Assembly: GCA_018646625.1 (NCBI GenBank)
Contig: JABGUJ010000002.1
Coordinates: forward strand, 164,843-228,842
Direction: 5' to 3'
Source of the DNA: Candidatus Woesearchaeota archaeon
Lineage (GTDB): Archaea > Nanobdellota > Nanobdellia > Woesearchaeales > JABGUJ01
DNA: 64,000 nucleotides
The position numbers and the translations under genes are program-made. Positions 1-41,751 of this stretch are shown one piece after another. The notes under the pieces are model-generated. The model saw only the letters and a program-made list of their open reading frames with translations. It was not told the origin of the DNA and made no database searches. The stretch's first letter is position 1. Each line of letters opens with the position of its first letter.

Positions 1-1
1 T

Positions 2-46
2 TGCGATTACTCCGAATGTAAAGCAACTCAAGTTTTTGCAGGATAA
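2..46 (+). CDS. C-terminal end of a gene truncated by the window edge (CDYSECKATQVFAG*)
   Basis: Open frame from the window edge to TAA at 44-46. Confidence 0.35.
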   Translation, partial: CDYSECKATQVFAG

Positions 47-96
47 ATAGAAAAGACCACACCAAGAAAGGATAAGACCGAAGAGATGATAAAATA

Positions 97-1761
97 ATGG
101 TTACGCCCGATGAGTTTGAAAATAATTTGCTCAATGAAAAGAAGGCAAGATTTCTCGCTGTTGTTAAGAAGACAGCTAATACTTTGAAAGTACCAGTACC
201 AAAAGTTAACTTTGATGGGTGTGAAGATGACAGCGGTGATGAAGAAGCACACATTCATCCTGAGATGTTACTTATTTGCGTATCAGAAAAAAAACTAAAA
301 CAAATGAGTTATGATGACATCGAGCATACTGCAAGTCATGAAGTGACCCATCTAGCAGATACTAAAGACGAGTCAAACCCGCACCATAGTAATGAATTCT
401 ATAAAAGACATCAAGAGACAGTTACATCTGGCTGGAAACCTCCCGCCGGAACTGTGCATATTAACGGTGGCGGATCAACATGCAAAGAGATTGATGACGA
501 GGAAGAAATACCTGTTGATAAAGAGCACTGCAATTATCATCTTTGTGGGAAGAAAGCCAAGCTAAGACAGTGTAAATATTGTGAGAACTATTACTGTGAT
601 GAACATCATGAGCCGTATGAACCTGAATGCGATAGGAAGTTTAAGACACCAACAAGAGAGGATGGTCATCCTTGTGCACCTTATGCAGATGTTATGATTG
701 AGAAGAAGAAGAAAGAGAAAGATAAATATGGGGACGCTCTAGCAAAATTATTAGGAAGAAAGAACCCTAAGAAAAAGCCTATCTATATTGATATTCCTGA
801 GCCAGTACCTCCGCCTAAACCACCAAAAGAACCAACTGAAGATAATTACCGTAATACCTACACATTTTTAACAAAGTTATTTCAGCCCTATATTGCATCT
901 ATTAGCAGTTTAATTAAGGAAATATGTCCCAATAACTACCGCATATCATTTTATGAGAACGGTGTTTGGAAGTCCATGACCACTTCGGCGTTCAGATATA
1001 AATTAAACACATACGGAGAAGAGTTCCAGGAATCTATGGGTGATAAGATAGAAGACAACAAATTACAAGTGTTCCTCTTATCGTTCTTCAAGATGTTAGC
1101 CTCTTTAATAAAATCAGATGTCTTGACTAAACATCAATTATTTACATTAACTAGAGAGTTTCTACAACTTACAGAAAAACGCTTAAAAATCTCAATAAAA
1201 ACAAAGCTCATATCTGAGTTTGAAGCACAAATTAAAGAAATAAAACCACCAACAATCAATCCTATTCCCGGTGGGAGAACTCCTGGTATTTCTAACCCTA
1301 ATCCAACTAAGTACAGTGGATGGGCAGGACCTATCACATTTGTCATTATGCTTGTCGGAATATTCCTATTTTTCACCCTATATCCTTCAGAAGTTAACAT
1401 ACCGGTTAATGTTAGTCCAGTAATTGAAGAAGTTGTTGAAGTGCAAAAGATTATACCAGTTGTAGAAGATGAACCAACGATAAACACATATCGCGATTAT
1501 CTAGATTATCCCAAAGTTTATCACGACCAAGAAATTGAGATGACTGGAACATACATCACACGTGAAGAAGAAAGAGAGAACAAGTTCTATGTAGACAGCT
1601 ATTTACAAGATGATGAGGGAGATACTATCAAACTTAAAGGCACAGAAGGTAGGCAGTTAGAGCAAGGTAAAACTTATAATATCTCTGGCACATTCAAAAA
1701 CTGGCCAACGGGTGCAGGGCTTGATGTGAAAAAGGTGAAAGAAAATGAAAAGGATATTTAG
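97..1761 (+). CDS. Membrane-anchored putative zinc metalloprotease (HEVTH) with AN1-type zinc finger and C-terminal OB-like domain
   Basis: HEVTHLADTKDESNPHHSNEFYKRH (HExxH plus downstream HxxxF); CNYHLCGKKAKLRQCKYCENYYCDEHHEPYEPEC (AN1-like); one TM (GPITFVIMLVGIFLFFTLYP); C-terminal YRDYLDYPKVYHDQEIEMTGTY...ISGTFKNW resembles tRNA_anti/OB. Confidence 0.7.
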   Translation: MVTPDEFENNLLNEKKARFLAVVKKTANTLKVPVPKVNFDGCEDDSGDEEAHIHPEMLLICVSEKKLKQMSYDDIEHTASHEVTHLADTKDESNPHHSNEFYKRHQETVTSGWKPPAGTVHINGGGSTCKEIDDEEEIPVDKEHCNYHLCGKKAKLRQCKYCENYYCDEHHEPYEPECDRKFKTPTREDGHPCAPYADVMIEKKKKEKDKYGDALAKLLGRKNPKKKPIYIDIPEPVPPPKPPKEPTEDNYRNTYTFLTKLFQPYIASISSLIKEICPNNYRISFYENGVWKSMTTSAFRYKLNTYGEEFQESMGDKIEDNKLQVFLLSFFKMLASLIKSDVLTKHQLFTLTREFLQLTEKRLKISIKTKLISEFEAQIKEIKPPTINPIPGGRTPGISNPNPTKYSGWAGPITFVIMLVGIFLFFTLYPSEVNIPVNVSPVIEEVVEVQKIIPVVEDEPTINTYRDYLDYPKVYHDQEIEMTGTYITREEERENKFYVDSYLQDDEGDTIKLKGTEGRQLEQGKTYNISGTFKNWPTGAGLDVKKVKENEKDI

Positions 1762-2707
1762 GCGATTAAAAAAAGCATTAACAGGAAAAGATAAAGACGA
1801 TTTAGAAAAACATCTTGATGATCCTGAATATTTGTTAGCAGCAGGACACTCATTTTTTGAAGACGGTAAACTACCAGAGGCTATTTATTGCCTTATCAAA
1901 GCCGAAAAGATAGATCCAACTAATACTGACATACTAAATCAAATTGTAGCAGTATATAGTCAGACTGAAGGAGATGACAATCTTATGTTTAAAGCTGTAG
2001 AATATGCTGACAAAGTTTTACATCTAGATCCAGACAACTTTCAAGCTCTTAATAACAAGGGTACAGCATTAGAGGCTCTTGGGAAATTTAAGGAGGCCAT
2101 ACGCTGTTATGATCAAGCATTAAAAATCAATCCTAAATATGTTAAAGCATTAAACAACAAAGGCAGGGCATTAAAAGTATTGGGGGAATATGAGGAATCT
2201 ATAAAATACTTCAATAAGGTACTGAAAATAGAACCAGGATACAAAAAGGCATTGTACAATAAGCATAAAGCTTTAGAAAATATGGGTGAACTCGCCAAAT
2301 CAACGATTGTGATGCAGAAATATGTTCAATCAGTAACAGGAGATGAAAGTATTTGTTCTGATAAAGAATTCTTAAAGAAACATAATCAAGAAGCTGCCCC
2401 ATACAAGAAAACTATAATGTTACACAATAGAGCCATGGACCTTATCGAATTACGTAAATATTCTGATGCTTTGAAAAAATTAGATCTGGCCATTAAAGAA
2501 TATAACAAACTTAAAGTTGATAAGAACGAAATTCGAGCTAAAGGGACTTATCTAAATTTAATGAATGATAAAGGAATGGCGTTAATAAAGCTTAAAAATA
2601 TCAAAGAAGCAATACATTGTTTTGATGTTGCTTTGGAGATAGATCCGACCGATGAGACTGTGTTGCGAAATAAAGAAAGCGCTCTAAATCTTCTCGAAGA
2701 AAAATAA
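1745..2707 (+). CDS. TPR-repeat protein
   Basis: Repeated TPR signatures (ALNNKGTALEALGKFKEAIRCYDQALKINPKY); overlaps the upstream gene by 17 nt. Confidence 0.85.
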   Translation: MKRIFRRLKKALTGKDKDDLEKHLDDPEYLLAAGHSFFEDGKLPEAIYCLIKAEKIDPTNTDILNQIVAVYSQTEGDDNLMFKAVEYADKVLHLDPDNFQALNNKGTALEALGKFKEAIRCYDQALKINPKYVKALNNKGRALKVLGEYEESIKYFNKVLKIEPGYKKALYNKHKALENMGELAKSTIVMQKYVQSVTGDESICSDKEFLKKHNQEAAPYKKTIMLHNRAMDLIELRKYSDALKKLDLAIKEYNKLKVDKNEIRAKGTYLNLMNDKGMALIKLKNIKEAIHCFDVALEIDPTDETVLRNKESALNLLEEK

Positions 2708-2740
2708 AAAGGCGACGACTCAGAAGTTAATCGCCACAGA

Positions 2741-3157
2741 TTACAATTTATTCGATAGCTTCTCTTCCCGTTTCATCTCATCATAGGCTTCTTGAAATTC
2801 TTCCCAAAATGGTTTTTCAACAGTAACATTAACATTCTCAGCTCTTACTCTATAGTTCGCACCATGATGTATCTTAAGAAGTTGAATAAGAATATTTGCA
2901 AGTTTAATCTTCATATCTGCGCTATAACATTTTGGTCTTATTTCTTCAATCAGCATTAAGATTTCAATAGCGAAGCAGTCTTTGTCATCTATCAAACTAA
3001 CAATTTTGTTTGAAACTTCATCAGTTAATCCTTTTTTACGTAACTCTCTAAGTCTAGCAGCCATTCGTTTATTTCGACTCCTCACTTTACCCCCCTTAGA
3101 GCCCAATTCTCTTGCTCGTTCCGTGCTTGTTATTGGTATTAAATTATTATTATTCAT
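2741..3157 (-). CDS. Small basic protein with KGG motif (GSKGGKVRSRNKRMAARLRELRKKG), element-associated
   Basis: N-terminal GSKGG-basic segment resembles small phage or terminase-like DNA-binding proteins; function uncertain. Confidence 0.4.
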   Translation of the reverse strand: MNNNNLIPITSTERARELGSKGGKVRSRNKRMAARLRELRKKGLTDEVSNKIVSLIDDKDCFAIEILMLIEEIRPKCYSADMKIKLANILIQLLKIHHGANYRVRAENVNVTVEKPFWEEFQEAYDEMKREEKLSNKL

Positions 3158-3193
3158 ATGTTCAACCTCTATTCGACCTCACACACCTCTATA

Positions 3194-3230
3194 ATAAACT
3201 ATGTAGTTGATTACTAGTTGAATAGTTTAT
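3194..3230. repeat. 9-bp inverted repeat ATAAACTAT-N19-ATAGTTTAT enclosing two TAGTTGA direct repeats
   Basis: Arms 3194-3202 and 3222-3230; TAGTTGA at 3204-3210 and 3215-3221. Confidence 0.75.
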
Positions 3231-4240
3231 ACGACACCTCGGTCTTTGTATTTAGATATTATTCTGTAGATGTAAGTGTCGGAAGTTCCTATTTCTTGCT
3301 TAATTTCTTTTACACTCTTTCCTTGAAAATATCTTGACATTACTTTGAACTCAGTATTATGAGGATCACAGAAGTATTTGAGAAACTCAGTTACTAACTT
3401 GATGTCTGATTCAATAACTCGACCTCTATTATTTAAAATGCAAAGACCACCTAATAACCCCATCATTTTATCCTGTGACCGCGATAATGAGGGAGATAAA
3501 GCAAGATTCTTATAACTCCGAGATAGTTTGATTATCTCCTCGGAAAAGTCGTTAAAATTGCTTATTTCTAGCCTATCTAGTTTTATTTTATCACCAAAGT
3601 CCATACTCTTCCTCTCAGCACTAGTACGTATTAATTCAATCTGTTTATCTTCAGGTATGTGATAAAATATTGGAACAAGTCTCTCACCAAATGTATTATC
3701 CAAGAAAGATGTACGATTTCTCAGATAACTTTCTCTAGTAATATTTGCAATAACATTAATTCTAGACTTGAACACAATTGACGGAGAGTTTCTCTCTGAG
3801 TAGACATATTTTCCTTCAGATAACACTTCGGCCAGACCATTCACTAATCTATCCTTAGTTTGTTTTTTTTTAGTTGAGAATAGAAGTGTTAGATCATTAA
3901 TCATCAATGTCTTGTTATTACATAGTTTTCCTCCTCTGAACTTTTCCATCAGAGAATGCATCGTGAAATCCGATCCAAGATCAACAAATGTGGATGGCTG
4001 AAAGATCAACATAACCTCTATGGAAATTCTGCTTTTGAATTGTCCTGATGGTGCTATAGTTATGTTGGATACAGGGATATAACTACGATTCTTAACTCTC
4101 AAGCTAGCTAAACACGCTGCTTTGATAAGTCCAACGAAGCCAAGAGAATATTTTTTTTCAAAGTATTCGTAGATCTTCTTAGAGATTCTTTGTTCAGGAC
4201 TATCTAACATTTTTATCCTCGTACTGTAAATATCCTTCAA
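3227..4240 (-). CDS. Mobile-element P-loop/AAA-like ATPase with atypical Walker A and C-terminal HTH
   Basis: APSGQFKS in Walker A position, TLMINDLTLLFS as Walker B-like, INVIANIT sensor-like, FGERLVPIFYHIP GER motif; C-terminal GKSVKEIKQEIGTSDTYIYRIISKY HTH. Confidence 0.55.
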   Translation of the reverse strand: MKDIYSTRIKMLDSPEQRISKKIYEYFEKKYSLGFVGLIKAACLASLRVKNRSYIPVSNITIAPSGQFKSRISIEVMLIFQPSTFVDLGSDFTMHSLMEKFRGGKLCNNKTLMINDLTLLFSTKKKQTKDRLVNGLAEVLSEGKYVYSERNSPSIVFKSRINVIANITRESYLRNRTSFLDNTFGERLVPIFYHIPEDKQIELIRTSAERKSMDFGDKIKLDRLEISNFNDFSEEIIKLSRSYKNLALSPSLSRSQDKMMGLLGGLCILNNRGRVIESDIKLVTEFLKYFCDPHNTEFKVMSRYFQGKSVKEIKQEIGTSDTYIYRIISKYKDRGVV

Positions 4241-4634
4241 ACAGTTTAGAGATTGCTAAAGCACCACCTTGTCTGGTACCTGTAAGAATTATAGGAATTC
4301 TGTACTTAACCTGCCATTTTAACATAGTTGAAAGAATAACATTAGGAGGAACGTTAGCATAGTAATTACCATTAATTATATCATAGTAATCTGCTTCGAT
4401 GATTATTGCAAAAAAATCGAATAATAAACCTCGTTCAATTTCCTTGACAAATCGGTCTCTGTCACGAGTTATTGAACAAATCCAATCATCTAAGTTTTTT
4501 CTTTCTACCACACAACTCTTAGGCCATAAAAGGTAATCTCCAGTCGGTAACTTCTCTCGACGGTATTTGATATTAAGTTTATCAAACTCCTCCGAGTAGT
4601 CTCTTTGTTCCCGTGTGTCAATTATTATTTCCAT
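4200..4634 (-). CDS. ERCC4/XPF-type nuclease domain protein
   Basis: MEIIIDTREQ...LPTGDYLL...CVVERKNLDDWICSITRDRDRFVKE; start chosen at the internal Met (4634). Confidence 0.8.
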   Translation of the reverse strand: MEIIIDTREQRDYSEEFDKLNIKYRREKLPTGDYLLWPKSCVVERKNLDDWICSITRDRDRFVKEIERGLLFDFFAIIIEADYYDIINGNYYANVPPNVILSTMLKWQVKYRIPIILTGTRQGGALAISKLFEGYLQYEDKNVR

Positions 4635-4651
4635 TTTTAAAGAAAAGCAGT

Positions 4652-4667
4652 AACCCCTAAAGGGGTT
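4652..4667. other. Perfect hairpin AACCCC-TAAA-GGGGTT at a gene junction
   Basis: 6-bp GC-rich arms; the stop codon of the upstream minus-strand gene (YAVKPL*) lies in the loop. Confidence 0.6.
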
Positions 4668-5121
4668 TAACTGCATAATTTGTTTTGAAGGCTTGTCCAG
4701 TCTTCGTTATCCTTGCCTTGAAACTCTTGTTTCCTAACTTCTCAGCATTCTCGACTAATGACTTAAGAGCCATTATCAATCTCTTCGAGAATGTTTGCAA
4801 AGACCTTTGCACTTCTGTTCCGTTTAGTTCAACCACATCAAACTCAATGCCTTGTTGAGTTTCACCGTTGAAATCTTTCTGTACTTGTTTCCAATTCGTT
4901 AGAACTACATCTGTTGGTTCGTTTTCTTCTAACCTTACAAACTGTCCACTGAATTCACTCCAGTTTATTTCTTCCATTTTTATACCTATTTCCATCGTCG
5001 TTCTTTCCCTCGCATGTATTTTTTTCATCGATTCAGGAACTTTACAACCGTCAGCAATTAGCTCTGACAATTTTACTGATTCCATAGATGACTCTAACCA
5101 AATTAATTCTTCAATTTCCAT
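4657..5121 (-). CDS. Putative ssDNA-binding/OB-like replication accessory protein of the element
   Basis: Upstream of the ERCC4 nuclease; pattern FVRLEENEPTDVVLTNWKQV...SLQTFSKRLIMALKSLVENAEKLGNKSFKARITKTGQAFKTNYAVKPL resembles phage-type SSB-like proteins. Confidence 0.35.
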   Translation of the reverse strand: MEIEELIWLESSMESVKLSELIADGCKVPESMKKIHARERTTMEIGIKMEEINWSEFSGQFVRLEENEPTDVVLTNWKQVQKDFNGETQQGIEFDVVELNGTEVQRSLQTFSKRLIMALKSLVENAEKLGNKSFKARITKTGQAFKTNYAVKPL

Positions 5122-5271
5122 TTTTCAAAAAAACCTAACCCGATCCGAAAATCTTTTCGCAGATAATGCTCCTAACTAATGAACTAGTAGAAACATGTCT
5201 CTTGCGAGATTCGGATAGAAGTTTTTCTCCTTCTTCATCTTTTAGTATTGTCTGAATCCTCATACTAAACT

Positions 5272-5310
5272 GTAGTAGGCATTACTACTTAGTCTTTTGC
5301 GGTCCGCAAA
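5272..5310. promoter_or_regulatory. Two palindromic candidate operators in a divergent intergenic region
   Basis: GTAGTA-GGCAT-TACTAC (5272-5288) and TTTGCGG-T-CCGCAAA (5296-5310) between divergent element genes. Confidence 0.55.
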
Positions 5311-5348
5311 TAAAAACATTTAAGTAGTCATAAGTACCATGTTTTGCC

Positions 5349-5888
5349 ATGATTAAGAAAAAGATAATCCTAAGCGCCAGAAAATACCGATTAGATATTC
5401 CTGGATTAATCATGAAAGGTATGGGTTGGAAAGATGATGTGATTTATATTGCTCCAAATCCTGAAAATAATACACTAATAATCTACAATAAACGAAGAAA
5501 ACCTGCAGGACTTACGGGTTTTCAACTGAATATTGAGAATGCACGTTGGATCAGGAATAAGAAAAAATACAGTCAAGAATTAGCTCTTAATTTATCAGAA
5601 GATGCGAGACGTGCTCTTCACGAGACAGATTGGAACGAAGAGGAAGATGGAGGATATGGGGAGATTGTTCGTTTAGATAATTTTATAGAAGATTTAAGAG
5701 ATGCCATAAAAAATTATCCCGATTCACTTAAAGAATCTCTAAGTGCAGTAGAAATAGCCTACATTAAACATCTAAAAGAATATGTCACCTACTTAGAGAA
5801 AAAAGGCGGTAAAAAACCAGATGGGATCGATGCAATTGAGCGAAAATATGAGGATAAGAATGCCAAGACCAAAGAAGCCAATAAATGA
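5349..5888 (+). CDS. SpoVT/AbrB-like DNA-binding protein with extended C-terminus
   Basis: N-terminal KKKIILSARKYRLDIPGLIMKGMGWKDDVIYIAPNPENNTLIIYNK. Confidence 0.5.
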   Translation: MIKKKIILSARKYRLDIPGLIMKGMGWKDDVIYIAPNPENNTLIIYNKRRKPAGLTGFQLNIENARWIRNKKKYSQELALNLSEDARRALHETDWNEEEDGGYGEIVRLDNFIEDLRDAIKNYPDSLKESLSAVEIAYIKHLKEYVTYLEKKGGKKPDGIDAIERKYEDKNAKTKEANK

Positions 5889-6075
5889 AAAGAAGCAAAA
5901 GGTAACCATCACTTTGAATAAAAGTATGTATAAAAACCTCAAAAAGAGAGGTCTCAACATATCTGGCACAATTGAACAATTGCTCAGAGTGGCTTTATTC
6001 AATGACTACAACCAATCTAAAGATTCAGATAGATACCGGTTGACGGGGGTTCGAATCCTCCTAGGCTCATATTAA
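5848..6075 (+). CDS. Ribbon-helix-helix (CcdA/CopG-like) protein whose C-terminus reads through the tRNA-derived att sequence
   Basis: KKQKVTITLNKSMYKNLKKRGLNISGTIEQLLRVALF; last 12 codons RLTGVRILLGSY overlap the tRNA fragment. Confidence 0.6.
   Translation: MRIRMPRPKKPINEKKQKVTITLNKSMYKNLKKRGLNISGTIEQLLRVALFNDYNQSKDSDRYRLTGVRILLGSY
6045..6069 (+). other. Partial tRNA 3' end (T-stem/loop plus acceptor 3' strand), probable att site
   Basis: GGGGG-TTCGAAT-CCTCC T-arm followed by TAGGCTC-A; no GAGCCTA-type 5' acceptor strand nearby. Confidence 0.75.
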
Positions 6076-29286: not shown

Positions 29287-29757
29287 TTATTTGTGAACTA
29301 TCTCGACGTATTCTGGTGTAAAGTATATTTCTATATCTTTCTTTTTTGAAAATAGTTCTATCTCTTCAGAGTGAGCATCACAAACTTCCCTTATGTCACA
29401 TTTAGAACATACTTTCTTTCGTACTAAGTCCTTCTTATACCAATACTTGCATGGAACCTGGAACAGCCAAGTTAGCTTTCTACCAATATCAGATGATTTA
29501 TCATAAACTTTAGTTTTGAAATGTTCTTCATCAATTAATCTACCAACAGTTTTACACATGTCGCACATGAATGTTTTACCTTTTTCATGGCTTTTGTATA
29601 TCTTTGCAGCTTTTTTACACTTAGGACATTCAATTTCTTCACCGTGCCACTTGTGTTCTTTCATGGTAACATAATCACAATTAGGACAAACTATTGATGC
29701 TTTATCTTCAATACAGTCAAAACCGCATTTGGGACACTTAGGTGTTTTCTCTGTCAT
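29287..29757 (-). CDS. Multi zinc-ribbon protein
   Basis: CPKCGFDC, CPNCDY, CPKCKKA, CDMCKT, CSKCDIREVC. Confidence 0.7.
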   Translation of the reverse strand: MTEKTPKCPKCGFDCIEDKASIVCPNCDYVTMKEHKWHGEEIECPKCKKAAKIYKSHEKGKTFMCDMCKTVGRLIDEEHFKTKVYDKSSDIGRKLTWLFQVPCKYWYKKDLVRKKVCSKCDIREVCDAHSEEIELFSKKKDIEIYFTPEYVEIVHK

Positions 29758-32249
29758 CTCATTAATCCCTCGTCAATTTCAGCAGCTGTTAAGTATTTAT
29801 TAAATATTCTTAACTCGTCGATTGTCCCATCTAATGGTTTGTCTTCACCATTAACTGAAAGCTTGTTTCCTATTCCTATTTTATTATTAAGAGTGAACCC
29901 CGGATTAACAATCTCTTGTTCTTTGGCAACTTGGTTGTCTACCACCAAACTCATCATGTCTGCTAGAACATCCCATCTGAATACAACCAATTTAAATTCT
30001 GTTGTCCAAGTTGAATCTAATGGATATTCAAGCAAATTGTCTTTCAGTTGTATGTGTAGCTTCGAGTCTTCTACGAATATTTTAAGATCTCCTCTGTCAG
30101 AGAAGATGTAATGTATTCCAGAAAGATCATTGAATTTTACCCAAAATGAGACCGTACCGATCATTCTGGTTAGCACATCATGCGGAAAACTGTCTTTAAC
30201 TAAATACGCATCTCCAGTTATTGTTGCCCCGTTCACAACTTTAGCAGGATTGTATGATATGGTGTTGGCACCTAAAGGCACCAGATCGATGTCGTTTCCG
30301 TCATAGATACAAACTTCATCCTGATCAAATGAACAATATAGTACTTCCCCATCTAAACTACCCATAAAGAGATCATCCCCGACGAAAAATGAAGGAAATA
30401 CTTGTCCCGTTAAGCTCACATAAGGGTTAATTGTCGGATTGGATAATTCAGCAATACTATATTTTATAACTTCAATTCCTGATGAAACTAAATCAGATTC
30501 GCTAATTTGGTTAACGTTACCCACCAAGTAAACTCTGTACAGATTGTTAGCAGGATCTAAAACAGAATCATAATTACCAGTCCACACACTTGCATCAATA
30601 TATAATACAGGAGCATTAATGAACGAACCATATAGTGCAGCCAAGAGTTGTAGCTGTTCGGTGTCTTGATCTCCGTTCGCATCTCGCTCGACAATAACAA
30701 CTTCTTCGAATGTTTCCCAATAATTCACAATATTACTATAAGTTACAGGTGTAGGAGCTATGTGTCCATAAATGGGATCATCCTGCACAACAGTTGGCAC
30801 CCCTTTAGAATGGGTGAACCAATATAAAAGATTAGAGCCATGTTTACTCATCATTTCGTCAAGATGCCAGTCGACAATATTTGCACTAAATCCAAAATAT
30901 GCATAGTAATTATATTTCCTCATTTCTGTCTGAGTATAATCATTCCAAGTTGCAATAGGAATCAGAGTTAACAAATCTGGAAGTTGTTCATTTTTGTAAA
31001 TCATAAATACAGGATCTTCGGAATATTTCGTTTCGTCTTTAATATTAGGAGATCTTACACTTACTTCGACTGTTGATTCATCTGAAACGCCCTCATCATT
31101 AGTTACTGTTAGCGTTACAGGATATAATCCAGGCATGGAGTAGCTATATGTAAATTGATCTAGGTCTTTTGTTTCGCCATCACCTAAAGTCCAGACATAG
31201 TCTAAGTCATCATCTTTCGCGTCATAACTCTGCGAACCGTTAAAAACAATAAATTCCGAATGTTTGTACAAATCTTCATTTAATGGAGAAGAAATTATTG
31301 CGGTTGGCCTTCCAGGCAAAAACACAGCATACTTACCAAATTCAGCGATAGTTGACTCCGGTGTCGCCAGATTGATCTTTTTGTCAATGTCGGTTGCCAG
31401 AGGTAACCATTTATCTTGAGAAGTATCAAAATGTTTTAGTATTAACGATTTTTCGTCAACCCCCTTAGGTACAAGAGCTTCTTTGAATTTAAGTTTAAAA
31501 TTCAGATCTCCTACTAATAACAAAGTATCTTCAGGGGTTATTCGGTGCACTTCGCTAGCCAGATCAGGAGATGATGATTTGGTGGCCTCCAGACATACGT
31601 TAGCTTTTTTAGCATTTTGTGGAAATTGCAGTCTTGTCCCCTCAGGTATTTGTAGAGAAGCAGAACCAGTCTCAAGATAAGTATAATCTTTCGTCGCACC
31701 ATTACTATCTAATTGAACATCTTTACAACTTCTGAATACTGTATTAATTTGAGTACAAGTTCCTTTACCCTCTACGTTAAGAGCAAGTTTTTTTGTCTTA
31801 GGTATTTCATAACAGTCAAAATAAGGATAGTCTTGGTAACAAAAATCACCAACAAACATTGAATTTAAGAATTCTCCATCTTCGTAAAGAAATACATTTT
31901 TTTGTACATTTGCAAGTAAACTATTCTTAATAATAGGATAACCTTCTATCACAGGGCTATCTAAAATATCTAGTCTGTGAAATAAGTCTAGAATACATAC
32001 TTCGTTAACATTCTCTTGTATAGTTAGTTCTTCGTTTCTTGCAGAAGCATAATCGTCAGTCATTGTATCAGTAATTGCCCTCATGTCGGAAGAAAACTTA
32101 ACAACATCAATTGAAATCCCACTCGTTCTAATTGATTTTAACGAAGTTAATGCAAAATAAAGAAGAATTATAATTACAAACGCAGCTATTAGAAATCTAA
32201 CTAGCTTTTTGGCCTCAACATTTGCATTTTTGTTTCTGAAAACATTCAT
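29754..32249 (-). CDS. Surface protein with N-terminal TM, PKD domain, CWB2-like region and C-terminal LamG/concanavalin-like domain
   Basis: VFNGSQSYDAKDDDLDYVWTLGDGE...YSMPGLYPVTLTVTND (PKD); INAPVLYIDA...YRVYLVGNVNQISESDL (CWB2-like); GTVSFWVKFND...DGTIDELRIFNKYLTAAEI (LamG). Confidence 0.7.
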   Translation of the reverse strand: MNVFRNKNANVEAKKLVRFLIAAFVIIILLYFALTSLKSIRTSGISIDVVKFSSDMRAITDTMTDDYASARNEELTIQENVNEVCILDLFHRLDILDSPVIEGYPIIKNSLLANVQKNVFLYEDGEFLNSMFVGDFCYQDYPYFDCYEIPKTKKLALNVEGKGTCTQINTVFRSCKDVQLDSNGATKDYTYLETGSASLQIPEGTRLQFPQNAKKANVCLEATKSSSPDLASEVHRITPEDTLLLVGDLNFKLKFKEALVPKGVDEKSLILKHFDTSQDKWLPLATDIDKKINLATPESTIAEFGKYAVFLPGRPTAIISSPLNEDLYKHSEFIVFNGSQSYDAKDDDLDYVWTLGDGETKDLDQFTYSYSMPGLYPVTLTVTNDEGVSDESTVEVSVRSPNIKDETKYSEDPVFMIYKNEQLPDLLTLIPIATWNDYTQTEMRKYNYYAYFGFSANIVDWHLDEMMSKHGSNLLYWFTHSKGVPTVVQDDPIYGHIAPTPVTYSNIVNYWETFEEVVIVERDANGDQDTEQLQLLAALYGSFINAPVLYIDASVWTGNYDSVLDPANNLYRVYLVGNVNQISESDLVSSGIEVIKYSIAELSNPTINPYVSLTGQVFPSFFVGDDLFMGSLDGEVLYCSFDQDEVCIYDGNDIDLVPLGANTISYNPAKVVNGATITGDAYLVKDSFPHDVLTRMIGTVSFWVKFNDLSGIHYIFSDRGDLKIFVEDSKLHIQLKDNLLEYPLDSTWTTEFKLVVFRWDVLADMMSLVVDNQVAKEQEIVNPGFTLNNKIGIGNKLSVNGEDKPLDGTIDELRIFNKYLTAAEIDEGLMR

Positions 32250-32256
32250 TCTACTC

Positions 32257-35200
32257 TTAATCGTCTCTTGTTAGGCTGATGTAGTTAACTAAATCATCAC
32301 CAGTATCTGCAACAAACCAATTACCTTGTACACAAGTACTTGGCATGCCTGACGTTAGAAGTGTGATTATATCAGTTTCACCATCTTGCCAAGTATCTTT
32401 GTTACCGTCATCACCACAACATTTCTTATAGTTTCCAAACGATGTGTCGTCTCTCCAACAACCAGTATCGCCCATATTATTACAAGGGTTAGCTAGCAGT
32501 ACACCACCTTCACTGATTATCCTACAAACTCCTTCAGCATAATCCGCATCGTTTATGTATTCAGCATCCACACAACCTCGCGGATTATCTTGATCTGTTA
32601 TGTACCATGTTTCGGATTCATCATCACCGCAACAAGGCGCGTTATCATGACTAGAACCGTCTATCCAGCAATATGAATCGTATAAATCTTCACAATTTCC
32701 AATATTAATTCCTTGATTAGTACAATATTCGAATGAGTTGTCTCTATCCATCCCAGTTTCATTAATTACACAAGCATACTTCCATTCAGACTTAGACTTA
32801 CCTGGATTGTCAAGCCAGATTGTCTCACCAGCACATTCTTCTTCTGATTGACAAACCTTTCCTGCGTCATCCTCAGCAATAGTCCAGTTTCCAGCAATAG
32901 AATCACAGAAATATACTATGGTTGATTCACTTTGATCTTGACATATTTGATATTCATTATTACATTCGACTTCGTGTTGTTCACAAGGGCTTGCAGCATT
33001 ACAGGTATAAATCTCCCCTTTGTTGCATAATTGTTTTTTATTTGAACTTAAAGCATTATCCCCATCAGGAGTACATTCACCCATACCACCACATGCAACT
33101 GCATTTTCGCAGATCTCATCATCGCAATCAGCAACACCATTGCAATCGTTATCAACACCATCGGTGCAGTTATTGTATTCGGTGGTGCTTAAAGTATAGA
33201 CAAGCGGTATCTTGTTATTAATAGGACAATCGTCACAAGCATCGCCCAGACCATCTTCATCTTGATCTAATTGATCAGTGTTTTGTGTGAGTAAGCAATT
33301 ATCTACATCATCCGCAATCTCATCTTCATCGGAGTCCGTAATACATTCTCCAAAGATAGTACCAACATAATTGCATTTGGAACCACAATATGAACATTCC
33401 GAATCTTCGCATTTGTTCCAAAACCCAGTACCGCATTCTTCACAAGAATTACACATATCATCACAAGCAGGATCTGCAGGGTGTTCTACACCGTCAATCA
33501 TACAGCCCGCAACATCGCAGACACCATCCGCATCGTTATCTAATCCATCGGTGCAAGAGTCTAAATCGTTCTCCACATCACAAACGTCCACAACACCATC
33601 ATTATCTTCATCGTTTAATGTAACATCAATCACAGGATTAATGCAACTATCACAATCATAAACACCATCATGACATTCTTTAACACAGTGATACTGTTCT
33701 ACAAACATTCCATAGTTAGGATCTGAAGAATCAGTCACACAGTATTCCCACAGCTCTTCAGTATTGGTAATCATATCCCAGCTGTCATCAATCTCATAAC
33801 AATATTTGTGCATATCATCTAAATCAATATAGTATGCATCTGTCGGGTCACCTAACTTATAAAAGTCATAATCTCCTTTAGTATTATCGGTTGGCCAGCA
33901 ATCAGAAACATCTGGACTTCCATCGCCATCATAATCAGTTAGAACAGTTTCATCCACTTGACCATTGCAATCGTTATCAACACCATCACCTAATCCACAA
34001 TCAGGCAATTCTTGAGAGCAAGCTAAATCTTCGTAATTAGTATAGCCCATATCAAAAGCAACAGGATCGTGTGTTTTTTGACAGTCGCAACCATCTTCAT
34101 AGTTATTATTTGAATCAAAATAACCATTAAAGCAACTACAATCTATTGTGTAATCAATATCGCAATCAATATTACAACTTGCAGAAGCTCCAGATTCAGA
34201 ACAAGTGTTTAAGCAAGCACACATCATGTTTTTCTCATTGAATGTGTAGGTAGTTTGTCCGCAAGGTGTTGTGTCGAAGTTATCATCACAAGTCGCTTCA
34301 GGCCAAGTACAATCTGCAGAACAAGTAACGACATCATCACTCACCATACTAGCAAGAGTAAAATCATCGATACAATAATTATTGCATGTTTCTGTTTTAG
34401 TATTACTCTCAGTACACTCAGCACCACACACATCTTTTAAGCAAGTGAATCCTGAGTTACATGAAGATATCGAAGTACATGTCTGTTCTGTTGCTCCAAC
34501 CCTGGATCTTAATGAGTCATCTCCTTCGCAAAGTTCGCAAACCATACAACCCGGATCGTTCGCACAATTGCCTAGCGGATTCTGACTACAGCAATCTCCG
34601 CCGCCAACAGTGAGAGTTTGTACATATATCGGGGTTCCTGGCACCTCCGTGGCCATTGTTTCATCTATATAACAAGCAACTGCAGTACTTCCAGCATCCC
34701 CTGAGTTACATTCAAATTTCTTTCTATATTCTCCAGAGTGTTCAATCCAACCAACGAAAGTACATCCAAGATCATCTGCAATCTCTATACTATCCAGGTT
34801 TGGCGCGTTTGCAGTACAGTATACTTCAATAGTTTCACCAGGGCAAGGATTCAATTTAGATACTTCAATTCCAGATAAAGATACTTCACAATCTTCATCA
34901 TTAGGCAACGTGTTTAGACCTTCATAATCTAAAGTACCATCACAATCATTATCTAAACCATCATCACATATAGTCTCGGCAGGCAGTAGTCCGGTACAGT
35001 CTTCCCAACCTTGTGCACCTAAGCAAGTCTTTTCTTCTCCTTGACATTCTCCTTGTTGATTATCACAAAGTTCCATCTCCATATTATAATCATCAGAGTC
35101 TATTCCATCCTTGCAATTATTATCAATACCATCACATACTTCTGCAGCATCAAGATTAATCTGCGCATTAGAATCATCACAATCACCTGCAATAGTAACT

Positions 35201-38200
35201 TGCCCTGCTGCGCATGCACCCGCACAAGAAGATTGAGCAGTATTTATGTTTCCAAACTCATCACCATCGGAATCAGTGTAGCAAGTCATGGTTGCAAGAT
35301 TCTCATCAACATCACCATCACAATCATTATCTAAACCATCACATATTTCAGAATCAGAAGGACTTATCTCCGCATCAGAATCATCACAATCCCCATCTTG
35401 AGTAACATATCCAACATCGCAGAAATCATAACAAACTTGAGTTAATGTGCTTCCGTAACCGTCATTATCAGAGTCTAAATAACAGTCCAGTAAAGGAAGA
35501 TTCTCGTCTTTCTCACCATCACAATCATTATCATCATCGTCACACACTTCAACAGGTTCAGGACCACACTGATCACAAGCATTCCTTAGCGCATATTCGA
35601 TCGATCCAATTTCATCAAATAAACCATCACAATCTTCATCCCCGCCGCCACAGGCTTCGACAGGCGTATCGCCACAACCGCCGCAAGCATTGGTTAATGC
35701 ATATTCGATCGATCCTATTTCATCAACTAAATCGTTACAATTATCGTCTAAAGAATTACAAGTTTCTTGTGCGCCTGGATAAACTAAATCGTTATCGTCA
35801 TTGCAATCCAGATCACCGCACTCACCACCTTGAATGCTGTAACCATCATTATCATTATCAGTACAGATCAAACAAGTTTCGTTAAGTGTTGGGTCATTAT
35901 CATCACAATCGTAAATTACAGGATCATAATTTCCATTTAAACAGTTGGCAGGATTTTGCCAAGGTTCACAAACAATACACTTTTCATAATCTTTCCCACC
36001 CATATTTTCGTTGCAGTAACCATCACCATCTAAGTCGTATGCGCAATGCGCACCAGCGTCTGTTGGTACACAACCAAGATTACAAGGTAAAACCGAAAAA
36101 GAACCTGGAGCGTATGGACCATATCCCGGGGAGCCATCAGGATAGTATATATGATTCCCGCATTTTGCTTCATTTATACTATTAGAGCTAAAACAATTAT
36201 CAGTAAATTCTTTAATAACGCCCGCAGAATTCACAAATCTGCTTATCGATGGAATCATTTTAAATGTTGTCCCATGAAGTGAATATTCATTAGCATAGTA
36301 TTCTTCTAAGTTATTTAATTCGCTACATGCGCAATATCTCACCTTATCAGTTCCAACAAATATTGTATCAACTAAGTCATCGCAATCCTCATCAACTCCA
36401 TTACACTCAGTTAACTCAGAAACTCCCGGATTCACATTAAAATTATCATCATCACAATCAATATCACCACAGTCTCCACCTTCTATACTGTAGCCATCAC
36501 CATCATTATCAGTACAAACTAGACAGTTTTCATTAACTGTTGGATCGTTATCGTCACAATCATAAACGGGCGTACCGTAGTCCTCATTAGCACAATCTGG
36601 ATCGTCATCAGGAGTACAAAGTAGACAACGTTCATAATCAGTTATTGTTGTGGATGATGATAAAAATGAATTACAGTAACCATCCCCATCTACATCATAA
36701 ACACAATGAGCGCCTTCGCTTGTTGTAACACACCCAAAAGGACAAGGTCTAGAATGTAATGTAGCTGCATCCTGAGGACCATAACCTGGAATTCCTTCAC
36801 CAAAAAACAGATTGTTATTGCAAATCGATTCATAAAAGTTTTCGTCGCTACAAAGATCCGCATATTGCTGTGGCACACCATAATGATTGTTGAACAAAGC
36901 CTTAGACGGAATATAACTTAAAGATACGCCACCATCAGAGTATTTAATCGGTGAATTTTCTTCAATAGAATTAGACTCACTACATGCGCAATATCTTACA
37001 AAGTAAGAACCAACTATGATTTCATCTATGAGGGTATCGCAATTTTCATCTACACCATTGCAGACTTCCTGCGCACCAGGATAAATGTCAGGATTATTAT
37101 CATTACAATCAATAGTACCACAGTCTCCGCCTTCGATACTGTAGCCATCATCATCAATATCCGTACAACTTAAACAATTTTCATCAACTTCCCCATTACA
37201 ATTATCATCTATATCATTAGAGCAAATCTCAGTCATTCCTTGGTTGACATTAGCATCTTCATCATTGCAATCATAAACAGGAGTTCCATATTCGCCATTC
37301 TCACAATCAGGATCTTCATCAGGCGTACAAAGCAAACATCTTTCGTAGTCTGTAGTTACTGATGAACTAGCAAGGTGTAAATTACAATAACCATCATCAT
37401 CTATATCATATTCACAATAGGCACTCTCATCTGTTGGTACACAACCAAGATAGCATGAGTTGTAAAGCCCGAGTGGCTCGCTACTAGTTGGAACCCCAGT
37501 CCCATATCCTGGAGTGCCGTCATTGAAGTAAGGCTCATTTTTACATGCTGCTTCAAGAATGGCAGTAGGGCTAGTACACACATCTTCTTTTTGTTTCGAC
37601 ACACCGAGGGCGTCTTTATACTGAGTGACAGATGGAATATGAATTAAAGAAACAGTATCGTGAGGATTAATGGTAGGGGAATTTTGTTCAATAAGATTAT
37701 CTTCAGTACAATCACAATAGTATAGTTTGAATGGACCAAAACCTACTGAGGACATTTGTTTTGCATCTATAAAACCATCACAATCATCATCGACATCATT
37801 ACAAGATTCTTGTGCACCTGGATAAACGTTAGGATTGTCATCATCGCAATCTACTTCCCCGCATTCGCCACCTTGAATACTGTATTCATCTAAATCAACA
37901 TCAGTACAAACTAAACATCCTTCATCTACTTCACCATTACAGTTATCATCTATTTCATTAGCGCAAACTTCTACCGCATCAGGATTAATATTGGAATTAG
38001 AATCATCACAATCATAAACAGGAGTTCCGTAATCTTCATTCTCGCAATCAGGATTTTCGTTCGGTGTACAAAGTAAACAACGCTCATAATCGTTCATGTT
38101 CTGTGAGGTGGAGAGTAAATTGTTGCAGAACCCATCTCCATCCTGATCATAAATACAATGTGCACCTTCACTCGTTGTATCACAACCAAGAGGACAAATC

Positions 38201-41200
38201 ATAGAAATTAATTTAGATGCACTTCCTGGGCCGTATCCAGGGATGCCAGCACCATAGAACAAAGCATTGTTACATGTTGCCTCGTAAAGAATATTAGCAT
38301 AGCATGAATCTGGACTTTCATACCAGTTTCCTGCGTGGCCTTTGTATTTGACTTTTGAAGGTATATAGTTGAGCAGGACACCGCCATCCGTAGGATCTTT
38401 TTCTGGCGAATCTTCTTCTAGAATGTTAGATTCAATGCAGGCACAGTATCTGACAATGTAGGAGCCAATAAACATTTCATCTATGAGAGTATCGCAATTT
38501 TCATCTACACCATTGCAGACTTCCTGTGCGCCTGGATAAATGTTAGGATTATTATCATCGCAATCTTTGGCACCACAGTCACCACCATATGTGCTGTAGC
38601 CATCGACATCATTATCTACACAAGGAGAACAAGCGCCATCTACGCATTGATAATCTTGCACGCAGTGATTGTCAGTAACACAAGAATTCCTGCATTCAGC
38701 GGTGTTCAATCTCACATAAGGATCACAAGATTGACATGCAATATCGTCATCGCAAATAGTATTAGAAGTCATTGTGCAACTAGCTCCGCTTTGAGCATTA
38801 TTTGGTTCACAGGTCATGTCACCATAGTAGCAGATACCTCCATCAACATATCCGTTGCCGCGAATTGATACGCCAGTAGCTGAACTTGCTTCGCCGTCAG
38901 TGCAAGTCCCTTGTCCAGAGTAACATATATCAGAGATAAATGTGTTAAGAGGAGATGCAGCGTGATAGCCATCCTGATATATATAGTGAATATCTTCATA
39001 GTAACAACGCCTAGTGCTTGTATCTTTGCACCCAGTATAAGAGTAATAGCAGTTGTTTGCTGCAAAATAATGTCCAGGACATAGTCCAGTTTTACTAATT
39101 GTTAGGACACTGTAACCAGGAGGTGTTGATGTCGAGCAGCCAGCACAGTCAGAATCAACAATGTCTATATCACCATCACAATCATTGTCAAGTCCATCAT
39201 CACAAAAAGTTTCAGAAGCAGTACAAGGACTACATTCGTTATCTATACAGTTATTGTCTGTAATACAATGACTGTCTTGAGTGCAAGAAGTTCTGCAAAT
39301 ATTACCGTTGCAATTATATGCACCGCATGATGTTGTTGTCTGAGAAGTGCACGCACCACCTGAACAAGTAGATTGAGTCTTAGCTTCATAAACATTTCCT
39401 GAAATAATTCCGCATGTAGCTGGAGGACAACTAGTTCCCCCTATTTGTGTTGAACAGTATCCTGAACCGTCACATGCTTTCCCTGTGTAAACTAATCCGT
39501 TTCTACAGAATGGTTCATCAATACAAATTGTTCCTGCAGCGACGTTATAAGAAGGAGGACTGCACTTGCCAACCGATCCCGAAGTACATGATCCAAACTT
39601 AGTTCTGCACCCTTCATTTTCAATTATTTTTTCACAAGAAACTTGCGATTGCCAAACTCCTGAAGTGCATGACTTGTAATACTCATCGTTATAACATTTC
39701 TCATAACCGTTTGAAAACTCATTACCGGATGAATCATATATACATTTATTTTGAGAGTGGCATCGTTTTGTTCCAAAAAAATCAAGATCACATTGATTAC
39801 TTTTACAATCCGAATCTGTTGTACAAACTTCTCCGTTTGTTAATTTACAGTCTATATCATTAGCATCCATATACCCATCACAATCGTTGTCCACCCCATC
39901 GGAACATAAACCAGATTCGAATTCTTTACATGAAACACATTCTCCGCTTAAACAAAAATAGCTACTATCTGCACAATCAGCATTTGATGAACAAGTTGTT
40001 TTACAAGTATAACTTGCACAAGCATATGCGCCACAATCATCATTGGAACAACAATTTGATGATGCAGAACCTACACAACCAGAACCGCAGCAAATGCCAT
40101 CTGCATTTAGTGATGATGCGGAGAGATAGTCGTTAGGATTTACATCTTTGTCACAAGAATCTCCATCAACACAAAGGGAACAATCGTTACGATAAACCCC
40201 CAAATCGTCTTCGCAAACTTCGTTAGGATCACAATTTATTTGAGTATAACTTGAAGGTAAAACTGCTCTAGATACCGTAACCGAACATATTCCTGTTGGA
40301 GAAAATCCAGGGTGTGCATCATTATCGCATAGCCTTAGTTCATCACCTGCATGATTTCGAGTATAACAATCAGCCATGTATTTACCAATGCTTCCAACCG
40401 CAACTTCTTCTTTGTCACAGTGATCAATATTAGAGTCGAGTTCCCCTATTGAACACATTCCACTGTATGGATGTGTATAAGAGTAATAATTATCACTACA
40501 TCTCGCTCCATTTGTATCAGAAGATGCCAAAACATCACAATGTTCTTTGCATAATCCTTCTACACAAAAATTTGCGTCATTACAATCATTTTTATCAGTA
40601 CAAGTTTCAGGAACACAATCATTGTTTGAGCACATTTCATTATCTTGACATTGCCAGTCAGCAGTACAATCAACCCATTTTCCATCAGTCATACATTCTT
40701 CTTTATCTCCATCACCATCAATATCATGGTGACAGTTTTCATTGTAGTTGCAACTAAATTTAAGACAGGCATTATTATTGTCATTACAATCAGTCATAAT
40801 GCCATCAAGTCCTGGATCATATATACACATTCCAAGGGTTATTGATTGCTGCTCGTTGTTATAAGTCGTTATTGGACTTTCAGCAAGACATATGTCCCGT
40901 CCTGTGGCTTCAGTACTACTACATATTGCCCCGTCATTGGTATCACATGCACCTGAGGAAACAAGATTATTCTCAAACTGAGAATCAAAAAAACAATTAC
41001 CTGGAGCAATACCATAAAACGGCTCACAATTACTATCTCCATTGCAGTCAGTATAGCCAGATTTTCGTATATACTTACATTGAAAATTATCACAATAAGT
41101 GTAGCAATTATTGCTGTTACAAGGATCCTGTCCAACCACCGCACCGGCAAGATCACACTCATCGTTTGAACAACATTCAGCTTCGTTGGAAGGTGTTGAA

Positions 41201-41751
41201 GATGCAAACTTATATCCATCAGTTGTGCAGTAGCAAGTCACGCCACCGCATTGAGAAATTGAATCTCCTAACGGAATTGTTGTGGCAGGTGAATTACTGT
41301 AAACACACAGTTTTGATTGTTCAGTCCCCGTACATCCCCATCCGTTGGCAGTACACATATCTTCAGTCCCATAATGACAATAATAACCAGATTCCAAATA
41401 CTCACCGCAGTCAGCCTCAGGAGTTGTATCTCGACCATAATATCTACATTTACAGCAATCAAAGGCACCATTTCCTGCACCAACCCAACTCAAAGTCCAC
41501 GCAGGCATACATATGTTGGTACCGGGAATACATTTAGGAGTATAGACATTGAAACAGGCATTATTACACTGTCCAGCAGGATCAGCAATGTACAAACAAT
41601 AGTTCGAATTATCCGGATCAACCATCGAAGAATCACAAGTAGTTCCTGATTGTATGCTGGTATGATACAAAGTTGCATTAACGCCAACACAAAGAATCAA
41701 AAGTACTATTGAGAACAAGAAAATACTAAGTACTTTTCGTGTTATATTCAT
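32257..41751 (-). CDS. Giant (3164 aa) secreted Cys-rich protein with MopE-type and TSP3-like Asp-rich repeats
   Basis: Signal peptide MNITRKVLSIFLFSIVLLILCVGVNA; many DCDDNNPNIYPGAQEVCNGVDENCDTLIDE repeats; DSDEDEIADDVDNCLLTQNTDQLDQDEDGLGDACDDCP. Confidence 0.85.
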   Translation of the reverse strand: MNITRKVLSIFLFSIVLLILCVGVNATLYHTSIQSGTTCDSSMVDPDNSNYCLYIADPAGQCNNACFNVYTPKCIPGTNICMPAWTLSWVGAGNGAFDCCKCRYYGRDTTPEADCGEYLESGYYCHYGTEDMCTANGWGCTGTEQSKLCVYSNSPATTIPLGDSISQCGGVTCYCTTDGYKFASSTPSNEAECCSNDECDLAGAVVGQDPCNSNNCYTYCDNFQCKYIRKSGYTDCNGDSNCEPFYGIAPGNCFFDSQFENNLVSSGACDTNDGAICSSTEATGRDICLAESPITTYNNEQQSITLGMCIYDPGLDGIMTDCNDNNNACLKFSCNYNENCHHDIDGDGDKEECMTDGKWVDCTADWQCQDNEMCSNNDCVPETCTDKNDCNDANFCVEGLCKEHCDVLASSDTNGARCSDNYYSYTHPYSGMCSIGELDSNIDHCDKEEVAVGSIGKYMADCYTRNHAGDELRLCDNDAHPGFSPTGICSVTVSRAVLPSSYTQINCDPNEVCEDDLGVYRNDCSLCVDGDSCDKDVNPNDYLSASSLNADGICCGSGCVGSASSNCCSNDDCGAYACASYTCKTTCSSNADCADSSYFCLSGECVSCKEFESGLCSDGVDNDCDGYMDANDIDCKLTNGEVCTTDSDCKSNQCDLDFFGTKRCHSQNKCIYDSSGNEFSNGYEKCYNDEYYKSCTSGVWQSQVSCEKIIENEGCRTKFGSCTSGSVGKCSPPSYNVAAGTICIDEPFCRNGLVYTGKACDGSGYCSTQIGGTSCPPATCGIISGNVYEAKTQSTCSGGACTSQTTTSCGAYNCNGNICRTSCTQDSHCITDNNCIDNECSPCTASETFCDDGLDNDCDGDIDIVDSDCAGCSTSTPPGYSVLTISKTGLCPGHYFAANNCYYSYTGCKDTSTRRCYYEDIHYIYQDGYHAASPLNTFISDICYSGQGTCTDGEASSATGVSIRGNGYVDGGICYYGDMTCEPNNAQSGASCTMTSNTICDDDIACQSCDPYVRLNTAECRNSCVTDNHCVQDYQCVDGACSPCVDNDVDGYSTYGGDCGAKDCDDNNPNIYPGAQEVCNGVDENCDTLIDEMFIGSYIVRYCACIESNILEEDSPEKDPTDGGVLLNYIPSKVKYKGHAGNWYESPDSCYANILYEATCNNALFYGAGIPGYGPGSASKLISMICPLGCDTTSEGAHCIYDQDGDGFCNNLLSTSQNMNDYERCLLCTPNENPDCENEDYGTPVYDCDDSNSNINPDAVEVCANEIDDNCNGEVDEGCLVCTDVDLDEYSIQGGECGEVDCDDDNPNVYPGAQESCNDVDDDCDGFIDAKQMSSVGFGPFKLYYCDCTEDNLIEQNSPTINPHDTVSLIHIPSVTQYKDALGVSKQKEDVCTSPTAILEAACKNEPYFNDGTPGYGTGVPTSSEPLGLYNSCYLGCVPTDESAYCEYDIDDDGYCNLHLASSSVTTDYERCLLCTPDEDPDCENGEYGTPVYDCNDEDANVNQGMTEICSNDIDDNCNGEVDENCLSCTDIDDDGYSIEGGDCGTIDCNDNNPDIYPGAQEVCNGVDENCDTLIDEIIVGSYFVRYCACSESNSIEENSPIKYSDGGVSLSYIPSKALFNNHYGVPQQYADLCSDENFYESICNNNLFFGEGIPGYGPQDAATLHSRPCPFGCVTTSEGAHCVYDVDGDGYCNSFLSSSTTITDYERCLLCTPDDDPDCANEDYGTPVYDCDDNDPTVNENCLVCTDNDGDGYSIEGGDCGDIDCDDDNFNVNPGVSELTECNGVDEDCDDLVDTIFVGTDKVRYCACSELNNLEEYYANEYSLHGTTFKMIPSISRFVNSAGVIKEFTDNCFSSNSINEAKCGNHIYYPDGSPGYGPYAPGSFSVLPCNLGCVPTDAGAHCAYDLDGDGYCNENMGGKDYEKCIVCEPWQNPANCLNGNYDPVIYDCDDNDPTLNETCLICTDNDNDGYSIQGGECGDLDCNDDNDLVYPGAQETCNSLDDNCNDLVDEIGSIEYALTNACGGCGDTPVEACGGGDEDCDGLFDEIGSIEYALRNACDQCGPEPVEVCDDDDNDCDGEKDENLPLLDCYLDSDNDGYGSTLTQVCYDFCDVGYVTQDGDCDDSDAEISPSDSEICDGLDNDCDGDVDENLATMTCYTDSDGDEFGNINTAQSSCAGACAAGQVTIAGDCDDSNAQINLDAAEVCDGIDNNCKDGIDSDDYNMEMELCDNQQGECQGEEKTCLGAQGWEDCTGLLPAETICDDGLDNDCDGTLDYEGLNTLPNDEDCEVSLSGIEVSKLNPCPGETIEVYCTANAPNLDSIEIADDLGCTFVGWIEHSGEYRKKFECNSGDAGSTAVACYIDETMATEVPGTPIYVQTLTVGGGDCCSQNPLGNCANDPGCMVCELCEGDDSLRSRVGATEQTCTSISSCNSGFTCLKDVCGAECTESNTKTETCNNYCIDDFTLASMVSDDVVTCSADCTWPEATCDDNFDTTPCGQTTYTFNEKNMMCACLNTCSESGASASCNIDCDIDYTIDCSCFNGYFDSNNNYEDGCDCQKTHDPVAFDMGYTNYEDLACSQELPDCGLGDGVDNDCNGQVDETVLTDYDGDGSPDVSDCWPTDNTKGDYDFYKLGDPTDAYYIDLDDMHKYCYEIDDSWDMITNTEELWEYCVTDSSDPNYGMFVEQYHCVKECHDGVYDCDSCINPVIDVTLNDEDNDGVVDVCDVENDLDSCTDGLDNDADGVCDVAGCMIDGVEHPADPACDDMCNSCEECGTGFWNKCEDSECSYCGSKCNYVGTIFGECITDSDEDEIADDVDNCLLTQNTDQLDQDEDGLGDACDDCPINNKIPLVYTLSTTEYNNCTDGVDNDCNGVADCDDEICENAVACGGMGECTPDGDNALSSNKKQLCNKGEIYTCNAASPCEQHEVECNNEYQICQDQSESTIVYFCDSIAGNWTIAEDDAGKVCQSEEECAGETIWLDNPGKSKSEWKYACVINETGMDRDNSFEYCTNQGINIGNCEDLYDSYCWIDGSSHDNAPCCGDDESETWYITDQDNPRGCVDAEYINDADYAEGVCRIISEGGVLLANPCNNMGDTGCWRDDTSFGNYKKCCGDDGNKDTWQDGETDIITLLTSGMPSTCVQGNWFVADTGDDLVNYISLTRDD
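35826..38636 (-). repeat. Four tandem ~650-745 bp coding modules inside the giant gene
   Basis: Module start (DxDxDGYSxxGGxCG) recurs near 38600, 37890, 37150, 36500 and again near 35850; each carries a D(Y)ERCLLCTP-like or related block and GYGP. Confidence 0.8.

Follow-up and report, generated by a model that had tools for sequence, protein, structure and literature searches.

A predicted zincin–AN1 membrane protein and its relatives, with one member on an SSV-type integrated element of Woesearchaeota

The integrated element and its genes

The window analysed here, a stretch of 64,000 nucleotides from a contig of a Candidatus Woesearchaeota archaeon, begins inside an integrated element of 15.4 kb (C1:155458-170912) that covers window positions 1-6070. 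A 41-bp direct repeat pairs the 3' end of tRNA-Glu (C1:155458) with a copy at the right end of the element (the att repeat, 6030-6070, +). At this repeat an SSV-type integrase is split within one reading frame. Its N-terminal fragment IntN, with a ribbon-helix-helix, lies at 5821-6075 (+), and IntC matches PF16795 with an E-value of 1e-37. Judged from these sequence features, we are dealing with an SSV-type integrative element whose integrase was split by tRNA integration, which bears out the suggestion of a mobile element in the preliminary description of the locus.

The first complete gene of the window (97-1761, +) is a real open reading frame and encodes the 554-residue zincin-AN1-TM-OB protein P0001 within the element. 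It is preceded by the 3' end (1-46, +) of a TM-OB-CAP gene (L016 17543-18889), which shares the OB-like family of P0001, and its stop is overlapped by the gene of a TPR protein (1745-2707, +); the three likely form one operon. On the reverse strand follow a gene for a 138-residue protein with no assigned function (2741-3157), a gene for a 337-residue protein with a weak C-terminal HTH, possibly a replication protein (3227-4240), an ERCC4-type nuclease gene (4200-4676) and a gene for a 154-residue protein with no assigned function (4657-5121). A further gene without assigned function (179 residues, 5349-5888, +) precedes the integrase fragment.

Two genomes encode a LigT-type 2H phosphoesterase close to the zincin-AN1 gene (L016 16260-17543 and L018 10263-10943; 45% identity), and in the element of P0001 it is fused to a metallophosphatase. 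Two loci being too few, we discarded this neighbour as a functional clue.

Members of the family and conserved residues

On its own, P0001 gives matches to the Pfam families SprT-like (PF10263; 15.5-17.3 bits for a cut-off of 25.6), AN1 and DUF3795 that are all sub-threshold, and homologues were therefore needed. Members were defined as proteins that combine the zincin domain with the finger, and were gathered by searches for relatives and from GTDB contigs. There are nine, eight of them Woesearchaeota-like (P0001, G005, G071, G088, G072, G183, G428 and G426) and one from Micrarchaeota (contig L030); those records that carry a name belong to Woesearchaeota and Micrarchaeota assemblies. The finger module was found in 12/353 genomes of the order and 12/378 of the class sample, and is therefore rare and patchy. 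Because relatives occur in two archaeal phyla, the zincin-AN1-TM family is, on sequence grounds, a real one, and uncharacterised as a protease family.

The identity of the homologues to P0001 is only 26-36%. The motif HEVTH (residues 81-85; 337-351, +) and the following HHSNEF (residues 96-101) had been read as a zincin signature, and the alignment upholds this reading. H52, H54, the catalytic H81, E82 and H85, as well as H97 and F101 (the H-x3-F at 385-399, +), are invariant in the nine homologues, and so are the finger residues C145, C159, C162, C167, H170, H191 and C193. At such low identity, this invariance of catalytic and finger residues in the alignment is far beyond chance. H97 is the candidate third zinc ligand; in classical gluzincins the third metal ligand is Glu. 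From the conserved residues and the models we infer zinc binding and peptidase activity.

The loss of HExxH in homologues, named beforehand as an argument against a protease, is confined to two degenerate relatives, L042, which lacks the motif, and L031, which lacks the catalytic core and retains the finger. In the latter, a Micrarchaeota protein (840-1625), the core is absent in frame. Since both have lost the protease, the module is, from their sequences, not always enzymatic.

Fold, finger and membrane topology

The zincin domain (residues 1-118; 97-450, +) was approached by profile, fold and hhalign comparisons. The full-length AlphaFold model of P0001 is poor except for residues 1-110, the AN1 core and the short helix following it, the middle region (225-400) being weakly resolved. 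A model of the homologue G005 has a pLDDT of about 80-94 over residues 11-100, and its best 15 Foldseek matches in the PDB are selecase, jannalysin, abylysin and Wss1 (prob 1.00, TMt 0.51-0.62). Selecase and jannalysin also rank first with the P0001 model, and a PDB profile search with the zincin domain led to HtpX, Wss1 and selecase. The helix, the three-strand sheet and the active-site helix bearing HExxH, all elements of minigluzincins, are present in the model, so that structure prediction agrees with the zincin fold proposed at the outset.

The assignment to a family is less simple. Over the nine members, Pfam returns YgjP, SprT, WLM and AN1, every match lying below the curated cut-offs. 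YgjP-like (PF01863) matches 6/9 members (best E 1e-4) and WLM (PF08325) 5/9 (best E 7e-5), with no WLM match listed for P0001; a search of the genome of P0001 for YgjP-like proteins (PF01863) gave no match. By hhalign, the domain aligns with archaeal YgjP/SprT-like proteins at E 4e-6, via the third His and the Phe, and more strongly with HtpX, at E 8e-9, over the N-terminal part and HExxH. The spacing HExxH-x5-H-x3-F, known for WLM from the Wss1 alignment and for YgjP from the proteins L131 and L140, is kept in 8/9 members, the exception being P0001, with six extra residues in the loop before H97. Given the fold matches together with profile and hhalign ties to several families, the domain is best described, from sequence and model, as a minigluzincin-like zincin to which no single Pfam family can be assigned. 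Minigluzincins provide the best structural matches and share its size and fold, but they are small stand-alone archaeal proteins, whereas the domain of P0001 is fused to an AN1 finger and a TM helix. A likeness to SprT/SPRTN is limited to the sub-threshold Pfam match; unlike these enzymes, P0001 is predicted to be membrane anchored and has its finger downstream of the protease.

The Cys/His cluster that follows (C145 to C193; 529-675, +), initially described as AN1-like, is a variant AN1 finger by homology. Its Pfam match alone is sub-threshold, and hhalign against canonical archaeal AN1 fingers reaches prob 97.2 and E 4e-11, the alignment covering the first six ligands. The full CC-CC-CH-HC set is present (C145 C150 / C159 C162 / C167 H170 / H191 C193), and an aromatic residue precedes C5 in the family, in agreement with the ligand order and aromatic of the Cuz1 structure (PMC5035049) and with ZFAND proteins. 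Unlike the latter two, P0001 is an archaeal membrane protein, and its finger has an expanded loop before the last H-x-C, of 20 residues instead of the usual 5; about 20-30 residues are found there in all members. The ligands are kept in the nine members apart from the second Cys of G426, replaced by Ser. Sub-threshold matches to DUF3795 in 8/9 members probably reflect the AN1 cysteine cluster.

A single TM helix, as noted earlier, spans residues 410-428 (1324-1380, +). In P0001, K/R residues gather on its N-terminal side, and they are mainly N-terminal of the TM in the other zincin members that have one. By the positive-inside rule, the helix is therefore oriented N-in and the protease and AN1 finger should face the cytosol, in line with the cytosolic catalytic domain that had been proposed. 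The extracytosolic C-terminal domain (residues 465-554; 1489-1758, +) is also found in the upstream TM-OB-CAP gene (41% identity) and in other archaeal AN1-TM proteins. The presence of a domain, as previously described, stands, and its OB-like nature is plausible but weakly backed, with OB folds among weak structural matches of a low-confidence model. A similar domain follows the TM in G071 and probably in G428; the helix is absent from G426, and the contig of G183 stops before this region.

AN1 associations and the role of P0001

Several AN1 proteins of these archaea point towards proteostasis. Among about 48 AN1 loci, four have Cdc48 beside the AN1 gene (G426, G407 and G118, with G114 one gene away across an Hsp20-like gene), the AN1-Cdc48 (p97/VAT) loci being L068 7177-10387, L072 8922-12540, L021 4697-8378 and L085 9-1686. 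With about 0.2 adjacencies expected, a figure that is our own estimate and not a simulation, the Poisson probability is near 6e-5 for four adjacencies, and near 1e-3 for three if G407 and G426 share ancestry. The sole zincin-bearing member beside Cdc48 is G426, which is without TM and one AN1 Cys, and the neighbour genes of members are not conserved. AN1 is fused to an M50 site-2 protease in G518 (L117) and to DnaJ in a DnaJ-AN1-TM-OB protein of G219, and CAP domains occur in some other AN1 proteins. The DnaJ fusion, at L109 1-1836 (-), adds a DnaJ domain to an AN1-TM-OB protein.

The prokaryotic AN1 finger was reportedly associated with a membrane peptidase by Burroughs, Iyer and Aravind in 2011. 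Like those associations, P0001 combines an AN1 finger with a membrane-associated peptidase, but its peptidase is of the soluble minigluzincin type on a separate TM and not an intramembrane protease. This suggests a recurring archaeal theme, which in our analysis is backed only by the AN1-M50 fusion. The claim of novelty holds in this narrower sense: a literature search did not find the zincin-AN1-TM-OB architecture described, and in its exact form it seems undescribed, while AN1 with membrane peptidases recurs. A ubiquitin link of the finger, also raised in the preliminary description, was not supported. The genome of P0001 encodes one Cdc48 and one ThiF-like protein, which does not by itself show a ubiquitin system; an E2 search gave no match but is uninformative, its control being likewise silent.

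Sequence and models give good support to the gene and its conservation, to the predicted fold and the finger, and to the topology signal and the element; the substrate and cellular role we infer from them. We give about an even chance to P0001 being a membrane-tethered cytosolic zinc metalloprotease, carried as cargo of the SSV-type element. Its minigluzincin-like domain and finger would be held at the membrane by the one TM helix, the finger most likely bringing substrates or partner proteins to the active site. There the enzyme may cleave proteins that are misfolded or regulatory, probably in quality control or regulated proteolysis.

A switch of the BlaR1/MecR1 kind, in which the external OB-like domain senses a ligand and the cytosolic gluzincin cleaves a repressor or regulator, appears unlikely. 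P0001 and G071 do have the required order of outside domain, TM and cytosolic gluzincin, and the neighbouring TM-OB-CAP gene carries a related OB-like domain; however, G005 and G088 are tail-anchored without an outside domain, and BlaR1 is only a weak fold match (E 4.8). We attach an equally low probability to a competitive cargo, a protease sited at the membrane against invading viruses, other elements or host surface proteins. The element, the patchy distribution and the tyrosine integrases that adjoin two members (G088 and L030) and an AN1-TM protein in G209 would fit, but P0001 has no PHROG match, and relatives sought in viral contigs, phages and plasmids gave none. Somewhat less probable is a mainly structural AN1 membrane adaptor with proteolysis incidental or lost: many AN1-TM proteins are without protease, as are L042 and L031, yet every catalytic residue is kept in 9/9 full members. 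An SPRTN/Wss1-like protease of DNA-protein crosslinks is the least probable, for although Wss1 is among the nearest folds and repair genes were read near two members (a Hef-like helicase/nuclease in G072, an EndoIII-like gene in G005), the membrane anchor, the failure to find a DNA-binding module and the unconserved neighbours speak against it, and nothing ties P0001 to such crosslinks, contrary to the link first suggested.

P0001 unites in one predicted archaeal membrane protein two features that eukaryotes link to Cdc48/p97, the AN1 finger and a protease fold like that of Wss1. By analogy with eukaryotic Wss1-Cdc48 and AN1-Cdc48, one could speculate, with little confidence, on a Cdc48-linked pathway of membrane proteolysis in DPANN archaea, in which AN1 would dock the heads of proteases (zincin, M50) or of a chaperone (DnaJ) at the membrane, with versions on mobile elements. 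If functional, P0001 could serve to test whether the AN1-Cdc48 link is older than the eukaryotic ubiquitin system.

Genes for a UPF0182 protein and for a family B DNA polymerase lie outside the element. Further along the window (29754-41751, -), large putative surface proteins are encoded, one of 831 residues with PKD and laminin-G domains and one of 3164 residues with MopE-type metal-binding motifs.
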